This document shows, one piece after another, positions 2,873 through 36,267 of a stretch of DNA of 64,000 nucleotides (within the stretch, counting starts at the first letter, position 1; each line of letters begins with the position of its first letter). This DNA is from Roseobacter sp. GTDB taxonomy: Bacteria > Pseudomonadota > Alphaproteobacteria > Rhodobacterales > Rhodobacteraceae. The position numbers and the translations under genes are program-made. The notes beneath the pieces are model-generated. The model ran no database searches. It was not told where the DNA came from and saw only the letters and a program-made list of their open reading frames with translations. The stretch covers positions 1-64,000 of the forward strand of contig JADFAE010000007.1 in assembly GCA_015665415.1 (NCBI GenBank), given 5' to 3'.

Positions 2873-5281
2873 TCAGAACAGAAAATCATCCGCCGTGATA
2901 TCGGCCAGCAGCAGCCCCTGCAACAGGATCTGACCATTGCCGGTCGCCACCAACACCCCGCTGGCAAGCTGGCTGATCTCCAGGTCCGAGAAATCATCCC
3001 CCGCCACCCCCATGCCGCTGAGGTCGATCAGATCCTCGCCGGGGGTGAAATCGAGGATCTCATCCTGGCCATGCACCTTGCCAAAGACAAAGCTATCCGC
3101 GCCGTCTCCCCCGGTGAGCCAATCACCGCCCATATCGCCCGACAGCTGATCATTGCCAGTGCCGCCAAACAGATTGTCGCGGCCGCGCCCCCCCTTGAGC
3201 ATATCATCCCCATTGTAACCCCAGGCCCAGTCGGGATCGGCGCCTCCCTTCAGGGTGTCATTGGCGGCGCCGCCCATCAGGCTGTCGCTGCCCGCCTGCC
3301 CCACCAGCAGATCGGCACCCTCCTCGCCCCAGAGCTGGTCATTCTCGGTGCCGCCGCGGATATCGTCATTGCCAAGACCGCCATAGAGGTGGTCCGCTCC
3401 CATATTGCCCTTGAGACTGTCATTGCCGGGACCGCCCCAGAGCGTGTCATTGCCCTTATGCCCCTGCACATCGTCATTGCCCTCATTGCCATAGAGCAGG
3501 TCATTGCCGCCGCCACCCAGCACCATGTCATCGCCGAGCTCGCCACAGACCGTATCCGCGCCCCAGCCGCCGCGCAGGATGTCATTGCCATCGCCGCCCA
3601 TCAGCTCATCGGCGCCGCCCTGGCCGCGCAGCTCATCATCGCCCCCCAGCCCCCAGATCCGATCCGCGCCACCACTGCCCTCCAGCAGATCGGCGCTGCC
3701 GCTGCCATAGGTGATATCCTCCGCAGCGCTATCCCCCAGCGCCAGCCGGTCGGCACTGTCAAACCGTCCATCGGGCCAGAGATCCTCCAGCGTCAAATCG
3801 GTGCCGCTGGCGCTCTGCACCACAATGCGGGTGCTGCCAAAGCGCAGCTCGAGGCCACCCGAGTGGCTGTGCTGCTGCAGCTGGGCCGGGCTGTAGAGCC
3901 CGGTAAAAAGCGACAGGTCCAGCCGGTCCTCGCCGGGGGTGAAATCCAATACCGTGATCGCGCCGCCGCCCGGGTCGGCAATTGCCCCCAGCGCAAAGAG
4001 ATCGGCACCCAGGCCGCCCGTCAGCCGGCTGCCCGCGCCACTGGCCACCAGGGTGTCATCGCCCCAGCCCCCCTGCAGGGTCACCGCGCCGCTGCCGCCC
4101 TGCAGCAGATCATCTCCGGCGCTGCCCTGCAGTGTTCCGGCCCCCTCCAGCAGACTGTGCTGCCCCCCCAGGTCGCCCAGATCCAGGGCCAGGCGGGATA
4201 TCCCGCCGCTGGTGCCCGAGCTCACATAGATCTCCAGCTGATCGCCCAGCAGGGCGCTCTCCAGCGCCGTCACATTCTGCAGCCCCAGCCCCGCCGCATC
4301 AGCCAGGCTGGTGACATGCATGAGCTGGCCCGAGGGCAGCAATCGCAACAGGCTGAGCCCATCATCCGCGCCAGCGGCCAGCACCAGCACATGGCCCTCG
4401 ACCACCACCAGTTCCAACAGCGACACCGCGCCAAAACGGGTGGCCAGGGTATCATTGAGCTGATCCACCAGCTGCAGGCTGCCATCCGCCGCCACCCGCA
4501 TCACCGAGAGGGAGCCGCTGCCCGCAGAGGCCAGCACCAGCCAATTGGCCCCATGGGCCTGGAGGCTTTGCAGCGCCGTCGGATCCGAGACCGGCAGGCC
4601 TTCGCTGATGCCCAGTTGGTCCGCCGCCTGCAGCGCCCCGCTCTCACTGTCGATGCGATAGCTGCGCAGCCCCTGACCCAAAGGATCCAGCGCAAACAGC
4701 AGCCCCGCCTCTGCCAGGATCTCCAGCCCGCTGCTGCCCGCGCCCGCAGCCGGCAGCTGATAGGCGCTATCCCCGCCGGTGGTGGCCAATTGAGCCTGAA
4801 CAGTTCCGCTCCCGTCCAGCCGCCAGCCCTGCAGCACCCCGCTTTCGGTGATGCCATAGACCAGGCTGTCACCGGCATGGGCCCCGGCGCTGAGCCCGCC
4901 CACAACCGATGTCTCCAATCCGCCCGCCGAGGCCGAGGCCAGACTTTGTGTCTGCTGGGCAGAGAGCGCGCCATTGCCGCCGATGTCATAAGACAGCAGA
5001 TCGCCACTGCTGCTGCCCTCAAACAGCAGTCGCATCTCGCCGCCGATCTCGCCCAGAGCAAAGGCCCCGGTGCCCAGGTCCGCCCCCTCGTGCCAATAGC
5101 GCTGCATCAGCTCAGGAGGGGCGGCGCTGCCATCCAGGCGAAACAGGCTGATGCCGCCATTCACCCCATTGACCGCATAGAGCCAGCTGCCGCTGTCGTC
5201 CTGCAACACCTCAAGATCGCGCAGATCGATGTCAAAGCGGTCGCTGCCGGTCTGAAAGCGCTGCAGAAACTGAAACTCCAT
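2873..5281 (-). CDS. RTX calcium-binding secreted protein with N-terminal propeller-like region
   Basis: This 802-residue protein lacks a Sec signal peptide. Residues 1 to about 370 are repetitive beta-strand sequence of the lactonase/propeller type, with recurring Tyr-Ala-Val and Leu-Ser-Val-Met-Arg-Val units. From about 385 to 420 and again from about 535 to 740 come glycine- and aspartate-rich nonapeptides of the GGxGxDxLx type, which form calcium-loaded parallel beta-rolls. The C-terminus (HGQDEILDFTPGEDLIDLSG, then a hydrophobic tail ending DDFLF) matches the type I secretion signals of serralysin-like proteins. The same ILDFTPGEDLIDLS-like phrase occurs earlier near residue 445. GGGGAGAG precedes the ATG at 5281. 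No type I transporter lies in the window, so export would depend on genes elsewhere. A role in the matrix or adhesion is inferred; no catalytic motif was seen. Confidence 0.85.
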   Translation of the reverse strand: MEFQFLQRFQTGSDRFDIDLRDLEVLQDDSGSWLYAVNGVNGGISLFRLDGSAAPPELMQRYWHEGADLGTGAFALGEIGGEMRLLFEGSSSGDLLSYDIGGNGALSAQQTQSLASASAGGLETSVVGGLSAGAHAGDSLVYGITESGVLQGWRLDGSGTVQAQLATTGGDSAYQLPAAGAGSSGLEILAEAGLLFALDPLGQGLRSYRIDSESGALQAADQLGISEGLPVSDPTALQSLQAHGANWLVLASAGSGSLSVMRVAADGSLQLVDQLNDTLATRFGAVSLLELVVVEGHVLVLAAGADDGLSLLRLLPSGQLMHVTSLADAAGLGLQNVTALESALLGDQLEIYVSSGTSGGISRLALDLGDLGGQHSLLEGAGTLQGSAGDDLLQGGSGAVTLQGGWGDDTLVASGAGSRLTGGLGADLFALGAIADPGGGAITVLDFTPGEDRLDLSLFTGLYSPAQLQQHSHSGGLELRFGSTRIVVQSASGTDLTLEDLWPDGRFDSADRLALGDSAAEDITYGSGSADLLEGSGGADRIWGLGGDDELRGQGGADELMGGDGNDILRGGWGADTVCGELGDDMVLGGGGNDLLYGNEGNDDVQGHKGNDTLWGGPGNDSLKGNMGADHLYGGLGNDDIRGGTENDQLWGEEGADLLVGQAGSDSLMGGAANDTLKGGADPDWAWGYNGDDMLKGGRGRDNLFGGTGNDQLSGDMGGDWLTGGDGADSFVFGKVHGQDEILDFTPGEDLIDLSGMGVAGDDFSDLEISQLASGVLVATGNGQILLQGLLLADITADDFLF

Positions 5282-5741
5282 GGCCTGTCTCTCCCCGGTT
5301 GCCCCCAGCCCTGCTGCGCCCCAGGACCACCTGAGACGCAGCGGGGGATAGCTTTTGTCATCCAGAGACAGGATCGCCGCGCCCCACGGCCAATTGCGGG
5401 ATCAAATTTGGGCGAAACAGCGGAGATTGTTTACAGATTGAAGACAATGCCTAAAGCCCTGAGGGCAGGAAACAATCCGCAGGCTTTCTTTCCGGATCAG
5501 AACCAATGCGGCGAGGTTTGCCGCCGCCTTGCAGCAGATTACCCGCTGCTGGCCGCCCCCTGCCCCTCCCATTTTTCCACCGGCGCTCTCCCTGGCGCTC
5601 TCCCTGGCGCACGCACTGGCAGCCACTCTTGTTGCAGGCTGCACGCGCGCCGCCTTAGCGCCGCCTTGACCCCCGCGCGCAATGCTGGCGGGCAATTCTA
5701 CTGTCGCTGCCCAGATCCCCTTGTTCAGGAACCCGCGCCCC
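5282..5741. other. Intergenic region with a short tandem repeat
   Basis: This lies between the divergent RTX and DUF2793 genes, so promoters for both are expected here, although I could not pick convincing -35/-10 boxes. A 12-base unit, GGCGCTCTCCCT, is repeated head to tail at 5582-5593 and 5594-5605 with a partial third copy. Nothing else is recognisable. Confidence 0.4.
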
Positions 5742-6926
5742 ATGTCCGAGACCTCTGCCATCCTCGCTCTGCCCTATCTGATGCCCTCGCAGGCGCAGAA
5801 ACATGTCACCCATAACGAAGCGCTGCAGCTGTTGGATGCGCTGGTGCAATTGCGCGTCACTGCCTTTGACGCCGAGACCCCGCCGCTGGACCCGGCCCTG
5901 GGCGCCGCCTATGCGCTGGGGGCCAGCCCCAGTGCCGCCTGGGCCGGGCAGGCCCAGGATCTGGCGATCTGGCAGGGCGAGGGCTGGCTGTTCATTCCGC
6001 CGCAACCCGGTTGGCGCGCCTGGGGGCAGGAGGCGGGCGAACTGCGGATCTGGCAAGGCAGCGCCTGGGAGCAGGTTCTGGGCCAGACCCAGAACCTGCC
6101 CCAGCTTGGCATCCAGACCAGTGCCGATGCCTCCAACCGGCTGGCGGTTGCCTCTGCGGCCAGCCTGTTCAGCCATGCAGGGGCAGGCCATCAGCTGAAG
6201 CTGAACAAAGCCGCCAGCGGCGACACCGCCGCACTGCTGATGCAATCCAACTGGGGCGGGCGCGCCGAGATCGGGCTGTTGGGCAATGATGATCTCAGCT
6301 TCAAGACCTCTGCCGATGGCAGCAGCTGGGGCACCGCGCTGGTGCTGACATCGGACGGCCATGCCGGCTTTGGCACCGCCAGCCCCACGGCGCATCTGGA
6401 GATTGCCGGCACCGGTTCGGATTATCTGATCGCCGGGGATGGCAGCGGCGCGGCCTTTCGACTGGCAGCAGATGGCAATGGCGCTTGTGATGGGGCCTGG
6501 TCGGGGGGCGGGGCGGATTACGCCGAATGGTTCGAATGGGTTGACGGCAACCCCGATGAGGAAGACCGCCGCGGCATCTCGGTGGTGCTGGAGGGGGCGC
6601 ATATCCGCCCGGCGCGCTCAGATGAGGACCCGATCGGGGTGATCAGCGCCGCCCCGGCCCTGATTGGCGATGGCGACCTGGATGAGTGGAAACAGCGCTG
6701 GCTGCGCGATGAGTTTGGCGCGCTCTTGCTGGATGCGGCGGGCCAGCGCCAGCAGAACCCCGATTATGATGCCGCCCAGCCCTATCGCCCCCGCAGCACG
6801 CGGCGCGAATGGGCCCTGGTCGGGCTTTTGGGCAAGCTGCGCCTGCGCGCGGGCCAGCCCCACAGCGCCTGCTGGCTGCCAATGCGCCAGATCTCAAAAG
6901 AGATCGAGGAATGGCTGATCCGCTAG
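5742..6926 (+). CDS. DUF2793 protein with a Peptidase_G2-like C-terminal domain
   Basis: The 394-residue reading starts at the ATG at 5742 (MSETSAILALPYLMPSQAQK); an ATG 60 bases upstream is possible but adds non-conserved sequence. Residues 1 to about 100 are the DUF2793 module with its diagnostic QAQKHVTHNEALQLLDALVQ. This module is common in alphaproteobacterial phage-tail and gene-transfer-agent-like proteins. From about residue 255 the protein changes to YAEWFEWVDGNPDEEDRRG, SVVLEG and WALVGLLGKLRLR, resembling the intramolecular-chaperone autoproteolytic domain (Peptidase_G2) of phage tailspikes. It stands alone, convergent with manC, with no other phage genes. A glycan-binding or glycan-processing role is possible from the setting but not shown. 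Confidence 0.7.
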   Translation: MSETSAILALPYLMPSQAQKHVTHNEALQLLDALVQLRVTAFDAETPPLDPALGAAYALGASPSAAWAGQAQDLAIWQGEGWLFIPPQPGWRAWGQEAGELRIWQGSAWEQVLGQTQNLPQLGIQTSADASNRLAVASAASLFSHAGAGHQLKLNKAASGDTAALLMQSNWGGRAEIGLLGNDDLSFKTSADGSSWGTALVLTSDGHAGFGTASPTAHLEIAGTGSDYLIAGDGSGAAFRLAADGNGACDGAWSGGGADYAEWFEWVDGNPDEEDRRGISVVLEGAHIRPARSDEDPIGVISAAPALIGDGDLDEWKQRWLRDEFGALLLDAAGQRQQNPDYDAAQPYRPRSTRREWALVGLLGKLRLRAGQPHSACWLPMRQISKEIEEWLIR

Positions 6927-6944: not shown

Positions 6945-8387
6945 TTACCCTTTGGCCCCCTGGCCGCGGGCATAGACATCCTCGTAGCGGATGATGTCAT
7001 CCTCGCCGAGATAACTGCCGGTCTGCACCTCGATCAGCACCATCGGCAGCTTGCCGGGGTTTTCCATCCGGTGCACCGCGCCCAAGGGAATATAGACCGA
7101 CTGGTTTTCGCTGAACAGCTGCACCTTGTCATCGACGGTGACCTTGGCGGTGCCTTCGACCACGATCCAGTGCTCTGAGCGGTGGTGATGGCTTTGCAGG
7201 CTCAGCGCCGCGCCGGGATGCACATGGATGCGTTTGACCTGAAACCGCTCGCCCACGGCGAGGCTCTCGAACCAGCCCCAGGGCCGGTGGTCCTTGGGGA
7301 ATTCCGTGGCCTGGCGCGCGCCCTTGGCTTTCAGCGCCGCAACCGCCTGTTTCACGTCCTGGGCGCGGCTGGCATCCGCCACCAGCACCGCATCCGGCAT
7401 CGCCACCGCAATCACATCTTTCAGCCCGATGCCAACCACCTCGAGACTGTCATCCTCTGAGCGCAACAGGCTGTCGTGACAATCGATGGCGCTGGCATTG
7501 CCGCTGGTGACCACGCCCTGATCATCCGGGCTGGCCTCGCGCCAGACCGCGTCCCAGCCGCCCAGATCGGACCAGCCCGCCGCAAAGGGCACCACCGTGA
7601 GGTTTTTGGCCTTTTCCATCACCGCATAATCGATGGAGATATCTTCCAGCGCCGCCCAGGCCGTGGGGTCGAGCCGGAAAAAGCCAAGATCGCTATGACC
7701 TGCCTGGATTGCGGCCTCAACCGGGGCCATCAGATCCGGCGCATGAGCGGCAAACCCGGCCAGAATGGTCTTGACCGAAAACAGGAAAATGCCGGCATTC
7801 CACAGGAAATTGCCCGAGGCCAGCATCGCCTCTGCCGTCTCGGCGTCGGGCTTTTCGACAAAGCGTTTGAGACCGATGGCGCGGGGCGAAAAATCGCCCG
7901 GATCCCCGGTCAGCTCGAGATAGCCATAGCCGGTTTCCGCATGGGTGGGCTTGATGCCAAAGGTGACGATCTGGCCCTGGGCGGCCGCCTCGCCTCCCAC
8001 CGCAACGGCGGCGCGAAAGGCGGCATCATCCGGCACCACGTGATCGGAAGGGGCCACCAGCATCAGCGCCTCCGGGTCCTGCTGGTGCAGCCACAATGCC
8101 GCCGCCAGCACCGCCGGCGCTGTATTGCGCCCGGCAGGCTCGATCAGGATGGCCCCAGGATCGATACCCGCCTCTGCCAGCTGCTCGGTGACGATAAAGC
8201 GGAAATCGGAATTGGTCAGCACCATGGGGGCTGCAAAGCCCGCACCGGCCAGCCGCTGGGCCGAGGCCTGAAACAGGGTGGTCTCGCCGACCAGGGGCAC
8301 AAATTGCTTGGGGTAGCTTTTGCGCGACAGCGGCCAGAGCCGGGTGCCGGAGCCGCCACACAATAGGACCGGGGTAATCTTTGCCAT
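6945..8387 (-). CDS. manC: Mannose-1-phosphate guanylyltransferase / mannose-6-phosphate isomerase
   Basis: This 480-residue protein has the full length of bifunctional type II GMP/PMI enzymes. The nucleotidyltransferase domain starts with the pyrophosphorylase signature at residues 10-28 (CGGSGTRLWPL, then SYPKQF). The C-terminal third is a cupin-fold isomerase domain with the metal-site segment HPGAALSLQSHHHRSEHWIV near residues 405-425. It converts mannose-6-phosphate and mannose-1-phosphate to GDP-mannose in the cytoplasm. It is the last gene of gmd-colC-colD-manC, 17 bases after colD, and so supplies the precursor that Gmd uses. The 3' end converges on the DUF2793 gene. Confidence 0.95.
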   Translation of the reverse strand: MAKITPVLLCGGSGTRLWPLSRKSYPKQFVPLVGETTLFQASAQRLAGAGFAAPMVLTNSDFRFIVTEQLAEAGIDPGAILIEPAGRNTAPAVLAAALWLHQQDPEALMLVAPSDHVVPDDAAFRAAVAVGGEAAAQGQIVTFGIKPTHAETGYGYLELTGDPGDFSPRAIGLKRFVEKPDAETAEAMLASGNFLWNAGIFLFSVKTILAGFAAHAPDLMAPVEAAIQAGHSDLGFFRLDPTAWAALEDISIDYAVMEKAKNLTVVPFAAGWSDLGGWDAVWREASPDDQGVVTSGNASAIDCHDSLLRSEDDSLEVVGIGLKDVIAVAMPDAVLVADASRAQDVKQAVAALKAKGARQATEFPKDHRPWGWFESLAVGERFQVKRIHVHPGAALSLQSHHHRSEHWIVVEGTAKVTVDDKVQLFSENQSVYIPLGAVHRMENPGKLPMVLIEVQTGSYLGEDDIIRYEDVYARGQGAKG

Positions 8388-8404
8388 CCTGTTTCTCTCT
8401 ATCT

Positions 8405-9571
8405 CTAAAGGGCTGCCAGTGCCTCGACGGCCTCGGGAATGGGGTAATGGTGGTTGCCCACAAACAGCCCGTTGGCATCAATGTAATCGGCATTGCTCAG
8501 GCTGCCGTGGATCTCATAATCGAAATACTGCATCACCTCGTTCTTGGCAAAATTGCCCGCCACGATGGGGCGGCATTCAAAGCCCTTGGCCAGAAGCTGC
8601 TTCACCAGATCGGCGCGGGCAATCCCTGCGCCTTCGCGGATGACCAGCGAGAAACCAAACCAGCTGGAGGCGCCGATCTCCTGCTGGATGGCAAATTTGG
8701 GATGATTGGCCAGCCGCTCCTGCAGCAAGGCGCCATTGGCGCGTCGCCCTTTGATGAGATCCGGCAGTTTCTTCAGCTGTTCGCGCCCCAGCGCCCCGGA
8801 CATCTCCAGCGGGCGCAGATTGTAGCCCGGCAGCACAAAGCGAAAGCTCTCCTCAAAGGGATCCTCAGATTTCTCGCCGGTCACATGGTTGAATTTGGGC
8901 AGGTTGCGGGTCCAACCATGGGCGCGCAGAGACAGCATCACATGATAAAGCTCTTCGTCATCGCAGGTCACCATGCCGCCTTCCATGGTGGAGATGTGAT
9001 GCGAGAAGAACGAGGAATAGGAGCCCATGACGCCAAAGGTGCCGGCCTGTTTGCCGTCAAAGGTCGCGCCCATGGATTCACAATTGTCCTCGATCATCAC
9101 GATGCCGCGCGGCGCACAAAGCGCCTGCAGCACCGCAAAATCATTGGGGTTGCCCAGGAGGTTCACCACCATCAGGGCGCGGGTCTTGTCACTGATCGCC
9201 GCCTCCAGCGCGTTCAGATCATAGTTCAGCGTGGCGCGGTCGATATCGACGAATTTCAGGTGCAAGCCGTACTGCTGCAGCGGGTAATAGGTGGTCGACC
9301 AGCTGACCGCGGGCACGATGATCTCATCGCCGGGCATCAACCGCAGATCGTCATTCTTGGTGTAGCGCAGCGCCGCCAGCATCAGCAGGTTGGCCGAGGA
9401 GCCGGAATTGACCATCACCGCATGTTTGCTGCCAAAATAGGCGGCAAACTCGTCTTCAAAGGCCCGCACCTCGGGGCCCATCGAATACATGTCACTGTCG
9501 ATGACGCGCTGCAGCGCATCCTGTTCCGCCTGATCCCAGGAGGAGGTGGCAAGAGGGTAAATCGGGCTCAT
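8405..9571 (-). CDS. colD: GDP-4-keto-6-deoxy-mannose 3-dehydratase (ColD-like)
   Basis: This 388-residue protein belongs to the DegT/DnrJ/EryC1/StrS PLP-dependent family: GSSANLLMLAAL at about 57-68, PGDEIIVPAVSWSTT at 80-94 and EDNCESMGA at 161-169. The usual PLP lysine in the SFxxxKxxTxxEGG motif is absent. The sequence there reads FFSHHISTMEGG at 188-199, with histidine at the lysine position (H191, followed by H192). Lysine-to-histidine replacement is the mark of the 3-dehydratases ColD and RfbH/E1, which remove a sugar hydroxyl and do not aminate. With gmd, a ColC-like epimerase/reductase and manC beside it, GDP-4-keto-6-deoxymannose is the likely substrate and GDP-L-colitose the likely end product. 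It overlaps colC by four bases. Confidence 0.85.
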   Translation of the reverse strand: MSPIYPLATSSWDQAEQDALQRVIDSDMYSMGPEVRAFEDEFAAYFGSKHAVMVNSGSSANLLMLAALRYTKNDDLRLMPGDEIIVPAVSWSTTYYPLQQYGLHLKFVDIDRATLNYDLNALEAAISDKTRALMVVNLLGNPNDFAVLQALCAPRGIVMIEDNCESMGATFDGKQAGTFGVMGSYSSFFSHHISTMEGGMVTCDDEELYHVMLSLRAHGWTRNLPKFNHVTGEKSEDPFEESFRFVLPGYNLRPLEMSGALGREQLKKLPDLIKGRRANGALLQERLANHPKFAIQQEIGASSWFGFSLVIREGAGIARADLVKQLLAKGFECRPIVAGNFAKNEVMQYFDYEIHGSLSNADYIDANGLFVGNHHYPIPEAVEALAAL

Positions 9572-10518
9572 GCGTATCCGCTTTCCAAATAGTGGCGATA
9601 GGTCTGCGCGATGCCGTCCCGCAGAGAGGTCGGGGCCTGCCAGCCCCAGTGGTCCTGACGGTCGGTGGCGCAGAGTTTCTGCTTCATGCCAACCGGTTTG
9701 CTCAGATCATGGCTGAAGTTTCCGTGCCAGCCAATGACCTCGGCGACGGTGGCGTAATAGTCGTTGATACTATGATCCTGGCCCAGACCGATGTTCATGC
9801 TATCGGGCAGGCTCTCCATATCGGCGGCGGCGCGCAGCACCGCATCGGCCAGATCAGCGGCATACATGAATTCACGCCGCGCGGTGCCATCGCCCCAGAT
9901 CTCGACGGTTTGTTCGCCCGTCTTCTGCGCCTGATGCACCTTGTGGATGATGGCGGGCAACAGATGCGAGTGTTTCGGGTCGAATTTGTCATGCGCCCCA
10001 TAGAGATTGCAGGGGATCAGCGTCTTGTATTGGGCGCTCTCATCCTCGCGGCGGATGTATTCGCACAGGCGCAGTGCCAGGATCTTGGCAATGGCATAGC
10101 CCTCATTGGTGGGCTCCAGCGTCCCGGTCAGCACCATCTCTTCGCGCAAAGGGTTCTCAGCCGCCCGCGGATAGATGCAGGTGGAGGCCAGGTTGAGGAA
10201 TTTGCGCACCCCACCGCGATGGGCCCCCATGATGATATTGCGCCCGATGGCGGTGTTTTCATCCAGAAAGGCCACCGGATTGGCCATATTGGCCTGAATG
10301 CCGCCGACCCGGCCCGCCGCATGCACCACCAGATCTGGCTGGTGGCGGGCAATATAAGCATCAACCGCCGCCGCATCCGTCAGATCCAACGCGGCGCTGC
10401 GCGGGGCCAGGATCTCCCAGTCGGCGGCACGGGGGTGCTCTTGAATATTGCGCCCCACCAATCCGCCGCCGCCGGTCAGCAGCATCCTCGCCTTACGGCT
10501 GCCCTGTCCTGCACTCAT
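9568..10518 (-). CDS. colC: GDP-L-colitose synthase-like epimerase/reductase (ColC; GDP-fucose-synthase family)
   Basis: This 316-residue short-chain dehydrogenase of the GDP-L-fucose synthase (Fcl/WcaG) family has a nucleotide-binding loop at 15-24 (TGGGGLVGRN), catalytic Ser in LNLASTCIYP (109-117) and the YxxxK pair at Y141/K145. Family members epimerise C5 and reduce C4 of a GDP-4-keto sugar with NADPH. Sequence alone does not separate fucose synthase from colitose synthase. The call rests on the four-base overlap with a ColD-type 3-dehydratase, which makes the dideoxy intermediate that ColC uses. If ColD were inactive the product would be GDP-L-fucose instead. Confidence 0.8.
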   Translation of the reverse strand: MSAGQGSRKARMLLTGGGGLVGRNIQEHPRAADWEILAPRSAALDLTDAAAVDAYIARHQPDLVVHAAGRVGGIQANMANPVAFLDENTAIGRNIIMGAHRGGVRKFLNLASTCIYPRAAENPLREEMVLTGTLEPTNEGYAIAKILALRLCEYIRREDESAQYKTLIPCNLYGAHDKFDPKHSHLLPAIIHKVHQAQKTGEQTVEIWGDGTARREFMYAADLADAVLRAAADMESLPDSMNIGLGQDHSINDYYATVAEVIGWHGNFSHDLSKPVGMKQKLCATDRQDHWGWQAPTSLRDGIAQTYRHYLESGYA

Positions 10519-10521
10519 GGC

Positions 10522-11640
10522 TTAATCCTCGCGTGCGACGGGTTCGTCATAGCCGTGATCCTTCAGCACCCGGGCGCGCTGCGCCGCCTTCAGATCCGCA
10601 GCTGCCATTTCGGCGCACATCTCCTGCACCGTGATCTCCGGCACCCAGCCGAGCTTTTTCTTGGCCTTGGCCGGATCGCCCAACAGGGTCTCCACCTCAG
10701 CGGGGCGGAAATAGCGCGGATCGATGCGCAGCACCACATCGCCAACCTTCAGGGCCGGAGCCTTGTCGCCTGTGATCGCGGCAACGGTGGCGATCTCATC
10801 CACGCCAGAGCCGCTGAACTCCAGGCTGATCCCCAGTTCGGCCGCCGACCATTCGATGAACTGGCGTACCGAATATTGCACCCCGGTGGCGATGACAAAA
10901 TCCTCAGGATTGTCCTGCTGCAGCATCATCCACTGCATGCGCACGTAATCCTTGGCATGGCCCCAGTCGCGCAGCGCATCGATATTGCCCATGTACAGAC
11001 AGGGCTCCAGTCCCTGGGCGATATTGGCCAAGCCGCGGGTGATCTTGCGGGTCACGAAGGTCTCGCCGCGGCGCGGGCTCTCGTGGTTGAACAGGATGCC
11101 GTTGCAGGCATACATGCCATAGGCCTCGCGGTAGTTCACGCAGATCCAATAGGCATACATCTTGGCCACCGCATAGGGGCTGCGCGGATGGAACGGGGTG
11201 GTCTCGGTCTGCGGTGTTTCCTGCACCAGGCCATATAGTTCCGAGGTCGAGGCCTGATAAAACCGGGTCTTTTTCTCCAGCCCCAGAAAGCGCACCGCTT
11301 CCAGCAGGCGCAGCGTGCCCATGGCATCGACATCGGCGGTGTATTCGGGCGATTCGAAGCTGACGGCCACATGGCTTTGGGCACCCAGATTGTAGATCTC
11401 GTCGGGCTGCACTTCCTGAATGATCCGGGTCAGGTTGGAACTGTCGCTCAGATCGCCGTAATGCAGTTTGAACCGGGCCCTGTCGGTATGGGGATCCTCA
11501 AAGATGTGATCGACCCGCTGGGTGTTGAAGGAGGAGGCCCGACGCTTGATGCCATGCACCTCATAGCCTTTGTCCAGCAGAAACTCCGCCAGATAGGATC
11601 CGTCCTGGCCGGTCACACCGGTGATGAGCGCTTTTTTCAT
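10522..11640 (-). CDS. gmd: GDP-mannose 4,6-dehydratase
   Basis: The open frame extends to 11796, but family length and the sequence [20 protein letters not shown] place the start at 11640, six bases after AGGA; this gives 372 residues. It has the Rossmann glycine motif GVTGQDG at 8-14, the catalytic Ser/Thr-Ser-Glu segment STSELYG at 131-137 and Y156/K160 in SPYAVAK, all as in Gmd. The enzyme converts GDP-mannose to GDP-4-keto-6-deoxymannose with tightly bound NADP. It is first in the operon gmd-colC-colD-manC; the gap to colC is only three bases. Confidence 0.95.
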
Positions 11641-24156: not shown

Positions 24157-24810
24157 CTATTTCATCAGCCTCTCATGCAGGTCGATCGCCTCGTCCAGAT
24201 CCTCGAAATAAGACACTTTGCCATGTTCCAGAACCAGACCTGAATCGCAGAACTGGCGCAGCTGAGGCATCGAGTGATTGACCATGATGGCACCGGAATG
24301 GCGCATCCGCTGGGCAAAGATGGCGCGGCTTTTGGCGCGGAAGCTGGCATCACCTACCGCCGTGACCTCATCCACCAGATAGGTGTCAAAGCGGATCCCC
24401 ATCGAGGCGCCAAAGGCCAGCCGCGCCCGCATGCCGGAGGAATAGCTGCGCAGCGGCATATGGTAGGATTTGCCCAATTCGGAAAATTCACCAACAAAAT
24501 CCACCAGCTCCTCGGTATCCACCCCATAGACCCGGGCGACAAAGCGGATGTTTTCGACCCCGGTAAGCTGACCGTGAAACGATCCCGCCAGCCCAACCTG
24601 CCAGGAGATGGTGCCATCAGAGACCACCCGGCCGTGATCCGGGCGCATGGTGCCGGAGATAATCTGCAACAGGGTTGATTTGCCCGCCCCGTTGCGCCCC
24701 AAGAGCGCCAGCGAGCGCCCGGTGGGCAGGGTGAGGTTGAGATCATCGATGACGATCTTGCGCTCCCCCTTGAGCCAGAAGCTCTTGGTCAGATTCTCGA
24801 ACCGGATCAT
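24157..24810 (-). CDS. kpsT: ABC transporter ATP-binding protein for polysaccharide export (KpsT-like)
   Basis: This 217-residue ATPase is the short form typical of capsule and O-antigen exporters. Walker A is GRNGAGKST at 38-46, the signature YSSGMRARLAFG near 136-147 and Walker B TYLVDEVTAVGD near 155-166. It would power export of the finished glycan with the KpsM-like permease encoded at 26465-27337. It converges with the GlfT2-like gene at one-base spacing and follows the KpsE-like gene by 25 bases on the same strand, so kpsE-kpsT form one unit with kpsM divergent. Confidence 0.9.
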   Translation of the reverse strand: MIRFENLTKSFWLKGERKIVIDDLNLTLPTGRSLALLGRNGAGKSTLLQIISGTMRPDHGRVVSDGTISWQVGLAGSFHGQLTGVENIRFVARVYGVDTEELVDFVGEFSELGKSYHMPLRSYSSGMRARLAFGASMGIRFDTYLVDEVTAVGDASFRAKSRAIFAQRMRHSGAIMVNHSMPQLRQFCDSGLVLEHGKVSYFEDLDEAIDLHERLMK

Positions 24811-24835
24811 GGCAATGGGATCTCCCGGGTCAGTC

Positions 24836-26344
24836 TCAGCTGCGGTCGCGGATGGAATAATAGATCAGCGACAGGATCGACCAGCCCAGCACCAGGAACA
24901 GCGCCACCAGCCCGCTCAGCACAAAGCGCTCGGGATATTCTGCCTCCTGGGCCCGGGTCGGATTGATATAGGTGGCCAGATAGCGGCTCTGGCGGCTGGC
25001 CTCATCCCGGGCCAGCGCCAGCCCGGTCAGCGCCGCGCGATAGGCCTCTTCGCTATATTCACGATCCACCGTCAGCCGTTCGAATTCGGAAATCAGCGAG
25101 GGGTAATCTTCGCCGACGCCGCCGGTATCGGTATTGGTCGAGGTAAAGGTCTGACGCTCGATATCGATCCGCTGGCGGATCACGTCGATGCGCTGCTGAG
25201 CCTTTTTCAGACGCGGATCGCCGGTGGCCACGGTGCCGCGCAAAAGATCATATTCGATCAGGGAGGTGGCCAGTTCCTGCTGCAGATTGTTCATCACCCC
25301 CATGCGGCCTTGAATATCGGCCTCCGGATCGACAATCCGGGTGCGGGTGCGAAACCGGGTCAAGGCCTCGCGCGCCGCCTTCATCTCTTCCACCGCCTCC
25401 TCGAGATCAGCCTGGGCATAGCCGATGGCATCGGCGCGGGCCTGCTGGTTCAGCGCATTGATGCGGGTCTGGCTTTCGGCAACAATCGCCCGGGTGATGG
25501 CCTGGGCGGTTTTGGGATCAAACCCCAGGGCCTGCACCTCGATGAGGCCGGAACTGCTGTCAAAGGAAATGCTGACAATGCGTTGCCAATACCAGATCAT
25601 CTCTTCCTGGGTCGCCTCCGGCCAGATCGAGAAGGCCCAATCGCTGGGCCAGTGTTGGCTGTAATGGGCGCGCAGATCGATCTGCGCATCCACCGCTTCC
25701 ATCATCTCCTGGCTCTGGATGAATTCATAGAGGATATCGCTGTCCGAGGCCGTGGAACTGCCGGCAAAACTGGCCAAGCCGCCCAACAGATCATTGGCAG
25801 AGCTGCTGTCCTGGCTGCGCACGGTAAAACCGGTGGTCGACTGATATTGGTCCTCGGCCACGGTTGCGAGATAGAAGATCACCGCCGCCAGCGGGGCCAG
25901 CACCAGCACCACAAAGCTGGCAATCAGCCCCCAGTGGCGTTTGCGCATCTTCGCCGGTCCTGCCAGCGGATAGCTCTGGGCCTCGACTTTGGCTTCAGCC
26001 GCGCTGCGTTTTTGATCGGATATTTCGGCGGCGGCTTCGGCGGCCTTCAGCCGCGTTTTCAGCTCCTGCACCTGCCGGTCGATGGGGCGGTTGCCTTTCT
26101 GCGCGACTTTGCCCGGATTGGCACCTGCCAGATTTGCAGCAGATGTCTGCCCCATATCCTGTCCTGCGGTTTGAACCGCAGTCCGCTCCCCCTCCGGCTG
26201 CGGCTTACCGCCCGGTTTTGAACCTGCGCCACCGCCCTGTTTTTTTGCTCCGGCCGCTGTCATGGGATGTTGTTTCTCCTCATCCACCTTGCCTCCGTCC
26301 ATGCTGGCCCCGCTTGCAGTGCTGGCGGGCCTCGACATCTGCAC
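24836..26344 (-). CDS. kpsE: Capsule polysaccharide export inner-membrane protein (KpsE/Wzz-type)
   Basis: The open frame gives 502 residues; starts at 26338, 26302 or 26263 are also possible, because the first about 100 residues are Gly/Lys/Pro-rich and non-conserved. The PCP-2 layout is clear. A first membrane helix lies at about 133-157 (WGLIASFVVLVLAPLAAVIF). A large periplasmic part follows, with coiled coil from about 300 (DLEEAVEEMKAAREALTRF) to 420. A second helix sits near the C-terminus (FVLSGLVALFLVLGWSILSL). Such proteins join the KpsMT transporter to an outer-membrane exporter. No outer-membrane KpsD/Wza partner is in the window. Confidence 0.88.
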   Translation of the reverse strand: MQMSRPASTASGASMDGGKVDEEKQHPMTAAGAKKQGGGAGSKPGGKPQPEGERTAVQTAGQDMGQTSAANLAGANPGKVAQKGNRPIDRQVQELKTRLKAAEAAAEISDQKRSAAEAKVEAQSYPLAGPAKMRKRHWGLIASFVVLVLAPLAAVIFYLATVAEDQYQSTTGFTVRSQDSSSANDLLGGLASFAGSSTASDSDILYEFIQSQEMMEAVDAQIDLRAHYSQHWPSDWAFSIWPEATQEEMIWYWQRIVSISFDSSSGLIEVQALGFDPKTAQAITRAIVAESQTRINALNQQARADAIGYAQADLEEAVEEMKAAREALTRFRTRTRIVDPEADIQGRMGVMNNLQQELATSLIEYDLLRGTVATGDPRLKKAQQRIDVIRQRIDIERQTFTSTNTDTGGVGEDYPSLISEFERLTVDREYSEEAYRAALTGLALARDEASRQSRYLATYINPTRAQEAEYPERFVLSGLVALFLVLGWSILSLIYYSIRDRS

Positions 26345-26464
26345 CCGGACGGGTCACATCCTAAACGCCCTGCGATCAGAGCTGTTTGTAATTGCCTGTA
26401 CTATGACCCATAGTATCGCCTGCCAACCCCTCCTTCACAACCACAGAATCCCGCAAGCCCGCAT

Positions 26465-27337
26465 ATGTCCAATCCCCCCTCCGCCGCCCCCCAACCGGAG
26501 GGCTCCGCCGCCAGTCCGCACTCCTCTGAGCCGCAGTTCCCGCAGGCCCAAGAGCCCCGCGCCAAGGGCGGGCGCAGCTTTGCCCCCCTGCGCAGCATCA
26601 CCGCCCTGATCCTGCGGGAGATGGCAACCCGCTACGCCCGCACGCCCGGCGGCTATATCTGGGGGCTGCTGGAGCCGCTGGCGGCAATCATCTTTCTGTC
26701 GGTCGGCTTTTCCCTGATCATCAGGACCCCGTCCCTGGGCAATAGTTTCCTGTTGTTTTACGCCACCGGCTACATGCCCTTCGATCTCTACGGCAGCGTC
26801 TCAACCAAGACCTCCCAAGCGATCAACTTTTCCAAACCCCTGCTGCAGTTTCCCGCCGTCACCTGGATTGATGCGGTGCTGGCCCGGTTCCTGCTCAACA
26901 GCCTAACCTCGATCCTGGTCTCCGCCATCCTGCTCACCGGCATCCTCAGCGTGATCGACAGCCGCACCATCATCGCGCTGCCCACCATCGTCCAGGCGAT
27001 TGCGGCGACCCTGGTGCTGGGACTGGGCGTCGGCACCCTGAACTGCGCCCTGACCGGGCTTTATCCGGCCTGGGGCATCGCCTGGTCGATTTTCACCCGG
27101 CCGCTGTTTCTGGCTTCGGGGATTTTCTATCTCTATGAGGATCTGCCGCCGCTGGCGCGCGATATCCTGTGGTACAATCCGCTGATGCACATCATCAGCC
27201 TCGCCCGCAGCGGGTTTTTCCCAAGCTACAATCCCAGCTATGTGAATATGGCCTATGTGTTTTCGGTTGGGCTGATCCTGCTGGTCTTGGGTCTCTTGCT
27301 CATGGGGCGCTATCACCGCGACATCCTGCAGAACTGA
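26465..27337 (+). CDS. kpsM: ABC transporter permease for polysaccharide export (KpsM-like)
   Basis: This 290-residue ABC-2 type permease has six predicted membrane helices after a hydrophilic, Pro-rich N-terminus of about 40 residues. TALILREMATRYARTPGGYI at about 41-60 followed by WGLLEPLAAIIFLSVGFSLI is typical of KpsM/RfbA proteins. The ATG at 26465 gives the natural length. Gene order, divergent from kpsE-kpsT across 120 bases, supports a shared control region. It would form the channel for ATP-driven glycan export through the inner membrane. Confidence 0.9.
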   Translation: MSNPPSAAPQPEGSAASPHSSEPQFPQAQEPRAKGGRSFAPLRSITALILREMATRYARTPGGYIWGLLEPLAAIIFLSVGFSLIIRTPSLGNSFLLFYATGYMPFDLYGSVSTKTSQAINFSKPLLQFPAVTWIDAVLARFLLNSLTSILVSAILLTGILSVIDSRTIIALPTIVQAIAATLVLGLGVGTLNCALTGLYPAWGIAWSIFTRPLFLASGIFYLYEDLPPLARDILWYNPLMHIISLARSGFFPSYNPSYVNMAYVFSVGLILLVLGLLLMGRYHRDILQN

Positions 27338-28777: not shown

Positions 28778-29881
28778 TCAGCGTTGCCGCAACCAGACCT
28801 TCAGATCTTCCACGAGTTTCGCATCCACTGCCGCGCCACTCAGCTCGATGCGCCGGGCATCGGGCTGAAACCCCAGCCGCAGACCGGCGGCGATCTGGCT
28901 GCTGATCCGCTCCTGCGGGGCCGTCTCAGCAGCAGGCTGGCGGATTTGCGGCGCAATCTCTGCGCCAGATTCCTCAGGAGGTTGTGGCTCTAAACGTGCC
29001 TTTAGAGCCTGTTCATTCTGCAGATCTTCCAGCGCCGCAGTCAACACCGCCAGTTCCTCAACTGCCGTGGGGCGCGCGGCTAACTGCAGCGCCGCTTTTA
29101 GGCGGGGCGCAAACTCCGCATCCTCGCCCATCTGGCGCACCAGGGCCAGGCCCAGCTTCTCGCTGATCGCGGCGGGAAAATACAGCACCGCGTCCAGCGC
29201 CTCGACCAGGGTGACAAAACTGCCGATCTTGGAGCGCTTGGCCCGTGGTGCATTGGCAAACAGCCCCTGCAGCGCTTTCTTCTGGGTTGGGAACACCCCC
29301 TCCTTGAGCGCGCGCACCGCAATGCGGGCGCGTTCATAATGGGATAGATTGACCCGGATTTCATTCTCTTCGACCATGGCCACATAGGCCGCCTCGGCGC
29401 TGTCAGGGCGGATCACCAGCGCCTTGATCTGGGAGAATTCAGGCTCTGAATTCTCAGCATAGAGTCTGCGCAGCGCGCTCAGCCGGCGCCAGCCCGAAAT
29501 CAGCCCCCAGGATTTTCCGTCACGCCGCCCGCTCAGGGGCACCACTTCGATCGGGGTCTGCTGGCCGCGGGCGCGCAGGGATGCCATCAGCGCTGCCATT
29601 TCCTCTTCGTCCTGACTGATCCGGTCGCGCACCAGATGGGTCTCATCGATCGCCTCCAATGCGATCTCTTCCACCATCAACCCCTTGGCACGGGCATTGC
29701 TCAGCACATCCGACAATTCCTGCAGGGCGGCTTGGCTTGCGGCCTCGGAAGCTACCTGAGCAATGGGGGCGGGGGCAGCAGCGCTGGGGCTGGCCAGGGC
29801 CGGTCCCAGCGCCGATTTGCCCTCAGGCGCGCCGGAAAGATAGCTGTTCTGTGCCGGGGTAAGCCGCTTGCGTTTTGCCAT
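28778..29881 (-). CDS. parB: Plasmid partition protein ParB
   Basis: Starting at the ATG at 29881 (MAKRKRLTPAQNSYL) gives 367 residues. The ParB/Srx domain is clear. IALEAIDETHLVRDRISQDE is followed by LRARGQQTPIEVVPL near 100-115 and WGLISGWRRLSALRRLYAEN near 124-143, the box with the conserved G-X-R-R. VEENEIRVNLSHYERARIAV lies near 170-190. A helix-turn-helix region then follows, with FPTQKKALQGLF and AKRSKIGSFVTLVEAL. It binds parS and spreads to form the partition complex that ParA moves. It follows parA by 73 bases on the same strand; the parS-like palindrome lies just past its 3' end. Confidence 0.92.
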   Translation of the reverse strand: MAKRKRLTPAQNSYLSGAPEGKSALGPALASPSAAAPAPIAQVASEAASQAALQELSDVLSNARAKGLMVEEIALEAIDETHLVRDRISQDEEEMAALMASLRARGQQTPIEVVPLSGRRDGKSWGLISGWRRLSALRRLYAENSEPEFSQIKALVIRPDSAEAAYVAMVEENEIRVNLSHYERARIAVRALKEGVFPTQKKALQGLFANAPRAKRSKIGSFVTLVEALDAVLYFPAAISEKLGLALVRQMGEDAEFAPRLKAALQLAARPTAVEELAVLTAALEDLQNEQALKARLEPQPPEESGAEIAPQIRQPAAETAPQERISSQIAAGLRLGFQPDARRIELSGAAVDAKLVEDLKVWLRQR

Positions 29882-29954
29882 CTGCCTTGTCTCCTCCTCA
29901 TGCGATCCCGGGGGCATTTGCGCCGCACCCTGGGCTTTCTACCTTGTTAGAGCC

Positions 29955-31385
29955 TTAAGCGCCCGCACGCGCGCTTTGCGCTTTACCCTGATCTTCAGCC
30001 TGTGCTTCCAGCTCTGCCCGCCGCCAGACCCCCAGCAAAAGCCGCTTGAAGGCCGCATAGGTGGCGTCAAATGTTTCACGCCCACGGGCGTAGGTCTCGC
30101 GGTTGAAATCGCGGTAATCGGCCTCATAGATGCCGCTGACCTGCTCCCCCGCCTGGCCGATCAGGGCGGTGAAGTCCTGTTTATGCGGAGAGAGCACCGG
30201 GCCCATATAGGCCTGCATCAACCCGGCCAGCTCGCCCTGCTGGGCGCTGTCATAGCGGGTGATCACCGCGCGCACTGCATCCCATTCAAAACCCATCTCT
30301 GGCCGCCCCAGCGCGCGTGCGGCCAGGTTCTCGCCGTCTTCAATGGAGGCAAAGGTCGAATGCAGCATGTCAAAGAACCGACCGGTGCTGTCGAACTCCA
30401 GAAAAGACGCCCCCATCGGCACCAGCAGGATATCCGAAGCCGCCAGCCCGTTGATGGTGAGATAGCCCAGGGCGGGCGGGGTATCGATAAAGATCACATC
30501 ATAGTCATCCAGCACCCCATCCGCCTCCAGCCGGTCGGTGAGCGCATCCCACAGTTTCCAGCTGCGCGCGGCCATGCGCCAGACCGGGATCTGGAACTCG
30601 GCCCAGTACAAATTCAGCTGGGCGCCAATCAGATCGATATTGGGCCAATGGGTGCCCTGAATGACATCCCCAGCGGTCATCTCCATGGCAGTGCTCAGCG
30701 AGTCTTCCAGCGGCTGCGGGGCCTCACCACGCTCCAGTCGGCGCTGGTTGTCTGCGCGCAAATGCTCGCCGTAATGGCGCGCCAGCAGCGGAAAGGCGGT
30801 CTGCCATTCATCCTCGACACGGCCACCAAAGATCGAGGTCATCGAGCCCTGGCTGTCGAGATCGATCACCAGCACCTTGTAGCCATCCAGTGCCGCCGAC
30901 ATCGCCAGATGGGCGGCGGTGGAGGTCTTGCCAACACCACCTTTGAAATTGGCCACCGAGACCAGTTTGGCCGGCAGGCCCTTGGGGCGATAGGGGGTGT
31001 AATCCTTTGCCTTGGATCCCTGGGCACCAAAATGCGCCCGCAGCATCAGCACCTCATCCAGGGTGAACCATTTGGCCCCCCCCTCGGTTTCTGAGCGCCC
31101 CTGGGGCAAGTCCGGGTTGGCCTTGAGCACGCGGCGGAAATGGGCCTGGGCAACAGGGATCAGATAGCGGGTGATTTCCCAGGTGGAAAACAGGCGCAGC
31201 TCTTTGCGTCCCTCTTCGTTCATGCCCCGGCTGGAGAGATCCGCACGACCCCGGGCGCAGCCCTCGGCGATATCGGCAAAGCCTGCGGTATTGGTTGGAT
31301 TATCCAGCTCTGCCAGGGCCGCATCGGGATCAATGTTGAAATAGGGCGGCAGAGCGGCGCCTGCTTTGTGGATATCTCGTGCCAT
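29955..31385 (-). CDS. parA: Plasmid partition ATPase ParA
   Basis: The chosen ATG at 31385 (MARDIHKAGAALPPYFNI) gives 476 residues; the open frame reaches 31511 with a non-conserved extension. This is the long ParA form, with an N-terminal regulatory part of about 135 residues and then the deviant Walker A KGGVGKTS at about 148-155. The Walker A' strand VLVIDLDSQGSMTSIFG and the Walker B/Asp motif VIFIDTPPALGYLTINGL follow. Such proteins form ATP-dependent gradients on the nucleoid that separate plasmid copies and often repress their own promoter. It is transcribed away from repA, with the origin between. Confidence 0.92.
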   Translation of the reverse strand: MARDIHKAGAALPPYFNIDPDAALAELDNPTNTAGFADIAEGCARGRADLSSRGMNEEGRKELRLFSTWEITRYLIPVAQAHFRRVLKANPDLPQGRSETEGGAKWFTLDEVLMLRAHFGAQGSKAKDYTPYRPKGLPAKLVSVANFKGGVGKTSTAAHLAMSAALDGYKVLVIDLDSQGSMTSIFGGRVEDEWQTAFPLLARHYGEHLRADNQRRLERGEAPQPLEDSLSTAMEMTAGDVIQGTHWPNIDLIGAQLNLYWAEFQIPVWRMAARSWKLWDALTDRLEADGVLDDYDVIFIDTPPALGYLTINGLAASDILLVPMGASFLEFDSTGRFFDMLHSTFASIEDGENLAARALGRPEMGFEWDAVRAVITRYDSAQQGELAGLMQAYMGPVLSPHKQDFTALIGQAGEQVSGIYEADYRDFNRETYARGRETFDATYAAFKRLLLGVWRRAELEAQAEDQGKAQSARAGA

Positions 31386-34588: not shown

Positions 34589-35149
34589 ATGCAGATTGAA
34601 GAGACAGGATTACCGGGGCTGAAGCTGCTGGTGCCGCAGCGTTTTGGCGATGCGCGTGGATTTTTCAGCGAGAGCTGGAACCGGCAACGGCTGCTGGATC
34701 ACGGCATTGATCTGGATTTTGTGCAGGACAATCATTCGCTCTCGATGCAAGAGGGCACCCTGCGCGGGCTGCATTTCCAATCCCCGCCCCATGCCCAGGA
34801 CAAGCTGGTGCGCTGTGGCCGGGGCGCCTTGTTTGATGTGGCGGTGGATATTCGCGCAGGCTCGCCCTCTTATGGCAAATGGTTCGGGGTGGAGCTGACG
34901 GCTGAGAATGGCAGGCAGCTTTTGGTGCCTGCGGGGTTCCTGCATGGCTTTATCACCCGCGCGCCCGAGACTGAGATCATCTATAAATGCACCGACTATT
35001 ATGCGCCCGACTGCGATGGCGCGGTGGCCTGGGACAGCTGCGGCATTGAGTGGGGGTTCGACGGCCCCCCGGTGCTGAGCGATAAGGATGCCGCAGCGCT
35101 GTCGCTGGCGGAATTCAACAGCCCCTTTGTATTTGAGGATCCGGCATGA
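34589..35149 (+). CDS. rmlC: dTDP-4-dehydrorhamnose 3,5-epimerase
   Basis: This 186-residue cupin reads [20 protein letters not shown] at 11-30, [20 protein letters not shown] with HFQ near 42-65, [18 protein letters not shown] near 72-89 and FLHGF with the catalytic His near 110-120, all RmlC landmarks. It epimerises C3 and C5 of dTDP-4-keto-6-deoxyglucose. It is first of the four-gene operon and overlaps rmlB by four bases. RmlC is a homodimeric cytoplasmic enzyme without cofactor. Confidence 0.95.
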
Positions 35150-36198: not shown

Positions 36199-36216
36199 GG
36201 GCTTTCCACTTGGAAA

Positions 36217-36260
36217 GCCTGCCTCCGGCGGAGGTATTTGGGGAAAAGTGAAAACAGGGC
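36217..36260. repeat. REP-like intergenic repeat, copy 3
   Basis: CCTGCCTCCGGCGGAGGTAT followed by TTGGGGAAAAGTGAAAACAG lies between rmlB and rmlD. The hairpin CCTCCGGCGGAGG is followed by T/A-rich sequence, like copy 2 read in the opposite direction. It could act as an mRNA stabilising or attenuating hairpin inside the operon. Confidence 0.6.
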
Positions 36261-36267
36261 GCAGAAC

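Follow-up and report, generated by a model that had tools for sequence, protein, structure and literature searches.

Gene content of the locus and its replicon

The window analysed here, a stretch of 64,000 nucleotides from a Roseobacter sp. draft contig (JADFAE010000007.1), carries on its minus strand four intact genes, gmd, colC, colD and manC, whose very probable product is colitose, a rare sugar (Table 1). The spacing is three bases between gmd and colC and 17 bases between colD and manC, and an alternative upstream start of gmd is possible at 11646. A single leftward operon with small overlaps had been described in an earlier note made from the sequence alone; the operon stands, but the only overlap, of four bases, is that of colC and colD. 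The same note regarded the GDP-colitose pathway as complete. All four of its genes are identified, but the operon contains no phosphomannomutase, and "complete" is thus slightly too strong. A search of the genome with the E. coli O111 phosphomannomutase yielded two weak matches (30% and 28%; C1:335427-336479 and C2:77514-78551).

Table 1. Predicted features of the window, with the matches on which the predictions are based.
Feature	Coordinates	Strand	Basis
RTX calcium-binding protein	2873..5281	-	PF00353; frequent neighbour
DUF2793 + Peptidase_G2 protein	5682..6926	+	Pfam; frequent neighbour at cassette locus
manC, bifunctional mannose-1-phosphate guanylyltransferase / mannose-6-phosphate isomerase	6945..8387	-	TIGR01479 GMP_PMI 591 bits, cut-off 373
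colD, PMP-dependent GDP-4-keto-6-deoxy-D-mannose 3-dehydratase, DegT family	8405..9571	-	PF01041 254 bits, cut-off 19.8
colC, GDP-L-colitose synthase (C5 epimerase / C4 reductase), SDR family	9568..10518	-	ColC side of ColC/Fcl tree split
gmd, GDP-mannose 4,6-dehydratase	10522..11640	-	TIGR01472 584 bits, cut-off 415
Two GT2 glycosyltransferase genes	16030-17925, 17975-18958	-	PF00535
ABC-type polysaccharide export genes	24157..27337	ATPase -, sugar transporter/KpsE-like -, permease +	PF00005, PF01061; middle gene without Pfam match
parB and parA partition genes	28778..31385	-	ParA AAA domain; ParB without Pfam match
RepA replication initiator	31918..32943	+	PF10134 330 bits; 83.7-89.6% to RepA of closed Phaeobacter plasmids
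rfbCBDA dTDP-rhamnose operon	34589..37988	+	RfbA 89% to pP71_d

The gene content, namely RepA, ParAB, the rhamnose operon and polysaccharide genes, supports the assignment of the replicon to the RepA-type roseobacter "biofilm plasmids". Among these, Phaeobacter piscinae pP71_d has RepA, ParAB, RfbA, glf and exporter genes in common with the window; its ParB and ParA are 62% and 90% identical to those found here, and the export genes, which are likely to encode the exporter of the polysaccharide, 65-77%. That the replicon is plasmid-like is supported by RepA, ParAB and the closed plasmids of matching architecture, but it is not cleanly separate in the draft assembly: the contig covers a 95-kb circle about 1.7 times before continuing, inside a galU-like gene, into apparently chromosomal genes. 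A second copy of colD was considered as a sign of a terminally redundant circular contig, and this was rejected, as the contig is 400,792 bases long.

A closely similar setting with colitose genes is the plasmid unnamed3 of Phaeobacter sp. G2 (CP104103.1), a closed circle of 131 kb that carries RepA, rfb, T2SS and gmd-colC-colD genes and whose ColD and gmd are 96% and 94.6% identical, respectively, to those of the window. Unlike the window, it has no manC at the locus and carries other glycosyltransferases. The rfbCBDA genes are annotated beside RepA in the identical order; a dTDP-rhamnose operon is a hallmark of roseobacter biofilm plasmids.

The two GT2 genes are unproven candidates for the colitosyltransferase. 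Their homologues (62% and 76%) lie near the cassette in another colitose-type genome of the genus, G394; against the compared genes of the G2 plasmid, the first gave a 28% partial match and the second none. Since the glycosyltransferase sets of the window and the G2 plasmid differ, comparison with the E. coli O111 and G2 glycosyltransferases did not firmly name a colitosyltransferase, the best E. coli match being 25% over 87 residues.

Identification of ColD and ColC

By sequence, the product of colD is the ColD 3-dehydratase. It is 61% identical to the crystallised E. coli ColD (2gms), and chance is not an issue at E = 2.4e-159. It scores 533 bits against that protein, 195 against RfbH/E1 and 118 against perosamine synthase. 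The motif FFSHHISTMEGG contains His191 and His192, and His191 takes the place of the pyridoxal phosphate (PLP) lysine, aligning with the catalytic His188 of E. coli ColD, with asparagine in the ColD mutant 3b8x (titled H188N) and with lysine in 2r0t. This agrees with the earlier note, which had pointed to histidine instead of the PLP lysine in a DegT-family enzyme. All 98 matches rounding to at least 50% identity (of 112 collected), including the E. coli O111 ColD, have SHH at this site.

The note had also proposed placing the protein in a tree. In a tree of hand-picked sequences (43 of the 112 collected matches and six others, several outgroup branches being very long), it falls inside the ColD clade beside the crystallised E. 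coli enzyme and apart from RfbH/E1; two lysine-bearing aminotransferases of the same genome also fall apart from it. A Foldseek search with the predicted structure retrieved ColD chains as the 12 best matches (TM 0.83-0.85, rmsd about 10 A). At residues 186-196, the region that holds His191, pLDDT is below 50, and the model is therefore uninformative about the geometry of this residue.

These data bear on two other assignments of the protein. According to PMC8987622, RfbH/E1, the CDP-4-keto-6-deoxyglucose 3-dehydratase, resembles ColD in having histidine for lysine and in removing oxygen at C3, but has four [2Fe-2S] cysteines and depends on a reductase. In the alignment, the E1 cysteine stretch (CYC...C) is missing from the window protein, which scores 270 bits against the NCBIfam RfbH/E1 equivalog, below the cut-off of 423. 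With the tree placement, this led us to reject a CDP-dideoxysugar pathway. The other assignment is an aminotransferase, with GDP-perosamine or another amino sugar as the product. PF01041 bears the name of aminotransferases, and public records annotate proteins of this type accordingly, but the Schiff-base lysine is replaced by histidine, both in the window protein and, as SHH, throughout the matches counted above, and the score for perosamine synthase is far below that for ColD. We therefore rejected this reading, the least probable of those considered.

The product of colC is an SDR protein that could be taken for the GDP-fucose synthase Fcl, in which case the operon would make GDP-L-fucose and the DegT protein would serve another route. 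Its best match in PDB is indeed a GDP-fucose synthase (264 bits), the same being true of E. coli O111 ColC (248 bits), and the catalytic residues of ColC and Fcl are identical. Still, the tree separates the two: in the comparison proposed by the earlier note, the window protein groups with 30 other ColD-linked ColC sequences, E. coli O111 included, and not with GDP-fucose synthases (support 96/85), with one label change among 31 ColC and 21 Fcl-labelled rows. The ColC side was hand-picked (30 of 97 collected matches and the window), and the Fcl side was drawn from 17 of 30 loci and one plasmid, together with two PDB chains and an archaeal gene, L124. The latter was labelled Fcl, was also entered unlabelled, fell outside both groups and was excluded from the count of signature columns (31 against 20 rows). 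In these columns, the window protein has the ColC-type letter in 20 of 20, being itself among the 31 defining rows. Moreover, it scores 316 bits against the NCBIfam Fcl model, under the cut-off of 500, and is 45% identical to the Fcl of pP71_d compared to 59-90% for the ColCs of five ColD plasmids. A roseobacter Fcl query found nothing in the genome closer than ColC itself (44%). The identification as GDP-L-colitose synthase, apart from Fcl, is thus supported, and we rejected the fucose reading, now highly improbable, on the tree, the signature columns and the Fcl cut-off.

It is likewise very unlikely that ColC reduces C4 without inverting C5, which would give a D-configured GDP-3,6-dideoxyhexose. 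No match in the PDB searches was a chain named ColC, and hence the epimerase step was judged by residues alone. The equivalents of Fcl Ser107, Tyr136 and Lys140, the Ser-Tyr-Lys of SDR enzymes, and of Cys109 and His179, the epimerase residues of Fcl, are kept in 31 of 31 ColC rows, the window included.

Proposed pathway and comparison with E. coli

The place of ColD in its clade and the grouping of ColC uphold, at the sequence level, the proposal that GDP-L-colitose, and not fucose or perosamine, is the likely product, as inferred from the genes. ManC would provide GDP-mannose, which Gmd would convert to GDP-4-keto-6-deoxy-D-mannose. ColD, with PMP as the cofactor and His191 as the probable catalytic acid/base, would then take off the C3 hydroxyl, glutamate supplying the amino group needed to regenerate the cofactor. 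Inversion at C5 and reduction at C4 by ColC would yield GDP-L-colitose (GDP-3,6-dideoxy-L-xylo-hexose). In all likelihood the operon makes this compound. The sugar would then be built into a surface polysaccharide, with the ABC-type exporter of the plasmid as its probable route out of the cell, and gmd-colC-colD appears to be an exchangeable cassette.

The colitose O-antigen clusters of E. coli O111/O55, where ColD is named WbdK, share gmd, manC and colC-colD with the window, and in O111 colC and colD also overlap by four bases. Those clusters are chromosomal and include the phosphomannomutase gene rfbK, wzx and wzy; a scan of the window genes surrounding the cassette, which include an ABC exporter, revealed none of the three.

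Fucose and colitose genes at the plasmid locus

The pathway itself is not new, since colC adjoins colD in all of the best 80 public-genome ColD loci; gmd lies beside colC in 79 of them. The rarity of such genes had been overstated: ColD is thinly but widely spread, with matches in 12 genomes of a sample of 394 from the family and in 14 of 398 from the phylum, both counts including the window's own genome and some matches only 42-54% identical. What is new is the setting, with colitose genes on a roseobacter biofilm-type plasmid where close relatives carry fucose genes. Colitose has been described in the polysaccharides of enteric bacteria and Vibrio (PMC8987622) and in those of some marine gammaproteobacteria, among them Pseudoalteromonas, Colwellia and Aeromonas. 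The accessible text of PMC3210612, PMC7725333, PMC4052302, PMC8914368 and PMC13322260 contained no report of colitose in a roseobacter, and no literature match was found for dideoxyhexose together with roseobacter.

Among 12 species genomes of the window's genus, all with gmd, five carry gmd-colC-colD, seven gmd-fcl and none both. Family-wide, 0 of 149 had both ColD and Fcl, which is not significant alone (p 0.09); outside the family, Fcl-like pieces (53-64% and 42%) lie near ColD at two loci, L092 and L080. The gene order gmd-X-manC-DUF2793-calcium-binding gene is common to the window, where X is colC-colD, and to the Phaeobacter plasmids pP71_d, pP97_d and pP51_c and genome G395, where X is fcl. 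The DUF2793 and calcium-binding genes occupy the equivalent place in the three plasmids; the former also takes this place in five of 11 fetched genus stretches, of both sugar types, and the latter has further homologues. In the fucose-type genomes G397, G398 and G403 the surroundings of the cassette differ, and in four of the five colitose-type genus members the stretch fetched around colD contains no manC.

We compared trees of the cassette and its neighbours. The gmd DNA tree (20 rows) splits by sugar type (100/99). By contrast, the trees of ManC (13 rows) and RepA (12 rows) have four label changes each, no better than shuffles; both are small with few strong branches, and starred branches force two changes on RepA and only one on ManC. 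The closest of the 12 other ManC rows to that of the window is from a fucose-type genome, G399 (89%). The ManC tree was limited to genus rows with more than 400 aligned residues, and G396 was dropped because its ManC is in two pieces; its RepA (one stop, cut) was likewise excluded. No RepA was found in G397 and G403 at E 1e-120, and RepA and the cassette share a contig in only seven of the 12 genomes (four colitose, three fucose type).

Because gmd divides by sugar type but neither manC nor repA does so, the plasmids seem to exchange a fucose or a colitose cassette at a single locus. A clean replacement of fcl by colC-colD beside an unchanged gmd fails among the plasmids and near relatives, because there gmd itself splits by type. 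On a wide gmd tree of hand-picked rows (19 of the 80 public-genome ColD loci and others), the sugar labels mix, with seven changes, three of them forced by starred branches; hence over longer times gmd may have been retained while the following gene or genes changed.

As gmd-fcl occupies the place of the cassette on the RepA-type biofilm plasmids that close relatives carry, recombination could switch a plasmid between L-fucose and L-colitose, which is L-fucose minus one hydroxyl, and so change the surface antigen. We tentatively suggest, giving it somewhat less than an even chance, that roseobacter biofilm plasmids have one "deoxysugar slot" in which the two cassettes replace each other, changing the attachment polysaccharide and leaving the exporter, rhamnose operon and replicon constant. 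If true, a mobile replicon would thereby bring about serotype switching, for example under phage, lectin or fucosidase pressure. One paper matching biofilm plasmid and fucose (PMC11295528) dealt, in its relevant text, with phage-borne genes. Megablast found no phage record with near-identical module DNA. The alternative cassettes would also form a natural paired system, as closely related plasmids are expected to be distinguished by a single hydroxyl group of one sugar, making it testable whether the deoxysugar decides algal attachment, phage entry or fucosidase resistance.

Finally, the assignments made here correct the annotation of the plasmid records consulted, which list the ColDs as "DegT/DnrJ/EryC1/StrS family aminotransferase" and the ColCs as "GDP-L-fucose synthase".

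The probable colitose operon and its predicted products

The genes named in the earlier note as a leftward four-gene operon were all found intact on the minus strand (see the table). The gmd and manC products score above their NCBIfam cut-offs, while the SDR protein and the DegT/DnrJ/EryC1/StrS protein fall below those of Fcl (GDP-fucose synthase; 316 vs 500 bits) and RfbH (270 vs 423 bits), respectively.

In a PDB search with the DegT-family protein, the top four sequences were all E. coli ColD (533-528 bits), followed by RfbH/E1, the CDP-sugar 3-dehydratase (195 and 191 bits), a putative NDP-4-keto-6-deoxyglucose 3-dehydratase (121 bits), and sugar aminotransferases including perosamine synthase (118 bits). 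The DegT-family protein and E. coli ColD share 61% identity, and the invariant columns of the ColD alignment include S190-H191-H192, W91, H218, W220, and R222. The first histidine of the SHH motif aligns with asparagine in 3b8x (titled H188N) and with lysine in 2r0t; hence, His191 matches the catalytic residue. The review PMC8987622 describes the ColD histidine as the catalytic acid/base, the cofactor as recharged by glutamate, and a [2Fe-2S] cluster on four cysteines as present in E1 and not in ColD. Unlike RfbH/E1, the window protein lacks the cysteine stretch of E1. In a tree of 49 rows, it falls inside the ColD clade with 2gms and E. coli O111 ColD, RfbH forms a separate group, and two lysine-bearing aminotransferases from the same genome are far away, in agreement with the suggested 3-dehydratase of the ColD kind. 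As several outgroup branches are very long, we used this tree for the ColD clade and not for the outgroup order. A Foldseek search with the predicted structure, whose active-site loop is weakly modeled, placed ColD chains at ranks 1-12. In the tree, E. coli ColD (L121, 2gms) itself sits among marine alphaproteobacterial ColDs (L107, L049), a hint, under thin sampling, of gene transfer.

Proteins encoded next to ColD on five other plasmids share 59-90% identity with the SDR protein, against 45% for the Fcl at the corresponding place in pP71_d, the RepA-type biofilm plasmid of Phaeobacter piscinae. In a 53-row tree, one branch (support 96/85) parts all 31 ColD-linked rows, including E. coli O111, from 21 Fcl-labelled ones, and the window protein stands on the ColC side, as had been proposed. 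The positions equivalent to Fcl residues 107, 109, 136, 140, and 179, which we take to be functional, are kept in all 31 ColC rows; at 20 further columns that part ColC from Fcl, the window has the ColC letter every time. With the pP71_d Fcl as a query, no closer Fcl was found in this genome: the best match was ColC itself (44%), and the next ones reached 29-31%.

By orthology, ManC would produce GDP-mannose, Gmd would convert it to GDP-4-keto-6-deoxymannose, ColD to GDP-4-keto-3,6-dideoxymannose, and ColC to GDP-L-colitose, the steps known for the enteric enzymes (PMC8987622, citing Alam 2004). The sugar would then be transferred by a glycosyltransferase and exported via the ABC genes, and the polysaccharide could have a role in attachment. 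The glycosyltransferase genes have homologues near the cassette of G394, a member of the genus (62% and 76%), but among the genes compared from plasmid unnamed3 of Phaeobacter sp. G2 (CP104103.1) there was only one 28% partial match, and so we name no colitosyltransferase. Several genes in two nearby regions open with the sulfotransferase-like motifs HIGSHKTATTTLQ, HIGPYKTGSTAIQ, and HIGAHRTGTSAVQ; only one of these genes passes Pfam Sulfotransfer_3. The polymer may be sulfated.

Features of the window and of its contig
Feature	Coordinates	Strand
DUF2793 + Peptidase_G2 protein	5682-6926	
manC	6945-8387	minus
colD (DegT family)	8405-9571	minus
colC (SDR)	9568-10518	minus
gmd	10522-11640	minus
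Regions with motif-bearing genes	12086-15991; 21114-22118	
Gene passing Sulfotransfer_3	14370-15056	
Glycosyltransferases	16030-18958	
ABC export genes	24157-27337	
Direct repeat, two copies	1514-71203; 96700-166388	

Alternation of fucose and colitose genes

The order gmd-fcl-manC-DUF2793-calcium-binding gene is found in plasmids of P. piscinae, P. porticola, and P. inhibens and in the genus member G395; the window has the same order with colC-colD in place of fcl. The DUF2793 + Peptidase_G2 protein, with its phage-tail likeness, is a frequent neighbour of either cassette on such plasmids.

All 12 genomes of the genus carry gmd. ColD is present in five of them (G000, which is the window's genome, G394, G400, G401, and G402), and true Fcl (73-78%) in exactly the remaining seven. 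Such a perfect complement has a chance of 1 in 792 for independent genomes, which these are not. In the 149 genomes sampled from the family (G000-G148), ColD occurs in 6, true Fcl (identity at least 51%) in 49, and both in none, about two being expected by chance (p 0.09); G034, with a match of only 36%, was counted as neither. Outside the family, both kinds can lie close, as at loci L092 and L080 with Fcl-like pieces near ColD.

Among the 11 other genus stretches, DUF2793 adjoins the cassette in five (colitose-type G394, G401, G402; fucose-type G395, G399) and manC in four, all of the fucose type (G340, G395, G396, G399); in G397, G398, and G403 the surroundings differ. No manC was found in the stretches examined around colD in the four colitose-type relatives L205, L211, L212, and L214, and in all of these except L211 DUF2793 follows colD almost directly. 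RepA shares a contig with the cassette in G000, G394, G400, and G401 (colitose) and in G340, G395, and G399 (fucose).

The gmd DNA tree (20 rows) splits cleanly by type (100/99). On the ManC (13 rows) and RepA (12 rows) trees, the type labels need four changes each, no fewer than shuffled labels, with one and two changes, respectively, forced by strongly supported branches; among the ManC rows compared, that of fucose-type G399 is nearest to the window's (89%). The simplest reading of these sequences is that plasmids which are otherwise related have exchanged a block consisting of gmd plus either fcl or colC-colD. On a broader sampling of gmd the two labels are intermingled (seven changes, three forced), so that over longer periods the genes following gmd may also have changed independently of it. 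The GDP-colitose pathway and its enzymes are already known; for the host replicon and the alternation, we found no report in the mostly open-access literature searched.

Distribution of the module

A search of genome contigs yielded at least 572 ColD relatives among at least 583 matched stretches. Among the best 80, ColC adjoins ColD in all, gmd adjoins ColC in 79, and 17 have manC no more than 400 bases from ColD. At E 1e-80 and with the window's own genome included, ColD was present in 12 of 394 genomes sampled from the family, 14 of 398 from the phylum, and 5 of 12 from the genus, the weakest matches having only 42-54% identity. This adjacency and these counts point to a GDP-colitose module that is widespread but infrequent, the window being one more member. 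Three consecutive genes on a plasmid of the archaeon Haladaptatus pallidirubidus (L124) are gmd, one of SDR type, and one that is ColD-like (42%, FFFSHHISTIEGG). On an Azospirillum ramasamyi plasmid (L029), a ColD-like protein (50%) is encoded next to genes of the thiamine-pyrophosphate E1 type, and the annotation of the 17 kb shown includes neither gmd nor colC; this relative perhaps has a different use.

The host replicon

The window carries RepA, ParA/ParB, rfbCBDA, glf, and genes of an ABC polysaccharide exporter. Its RepA is 83.7-89.6% identical to those of the closed Phaeobacter plasmids compared, which supports the plasmid-like replicon of the earlier note. The window DNA resembles the G2 plasmid across the type II secretion genes, and this closed 131-kb plasmid has both the backbone and the colitose cassette as in the window.

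The window comprises bases 1-64000 of contig C2 (400,792 bases) in a draft genome of 4.47 Mb and 40 contigs. C2 contains a 69.7-kb direct repeat (99.996%), and one turn, from one copy to the next, is 95,186 bases; bases 1514-64000 of the window lie within the first copy. The second copy exits inside a galU-like gene into apparently chromosomal genes, with names read from translations. This arrangement could reflect either a chimeric assembly or integration of the plasmid.

A plasmid of Leisingera sp. S132 (L123, NZ_CP083559.1), whose replicon is typed like that of the G2 plasmid, possibly has a third, CDP-linked deoxysugar module: it encodes rfbF and rfbG, a methyltransferase, and a DegT protein nearest to RfbH in PDB (201 bits).
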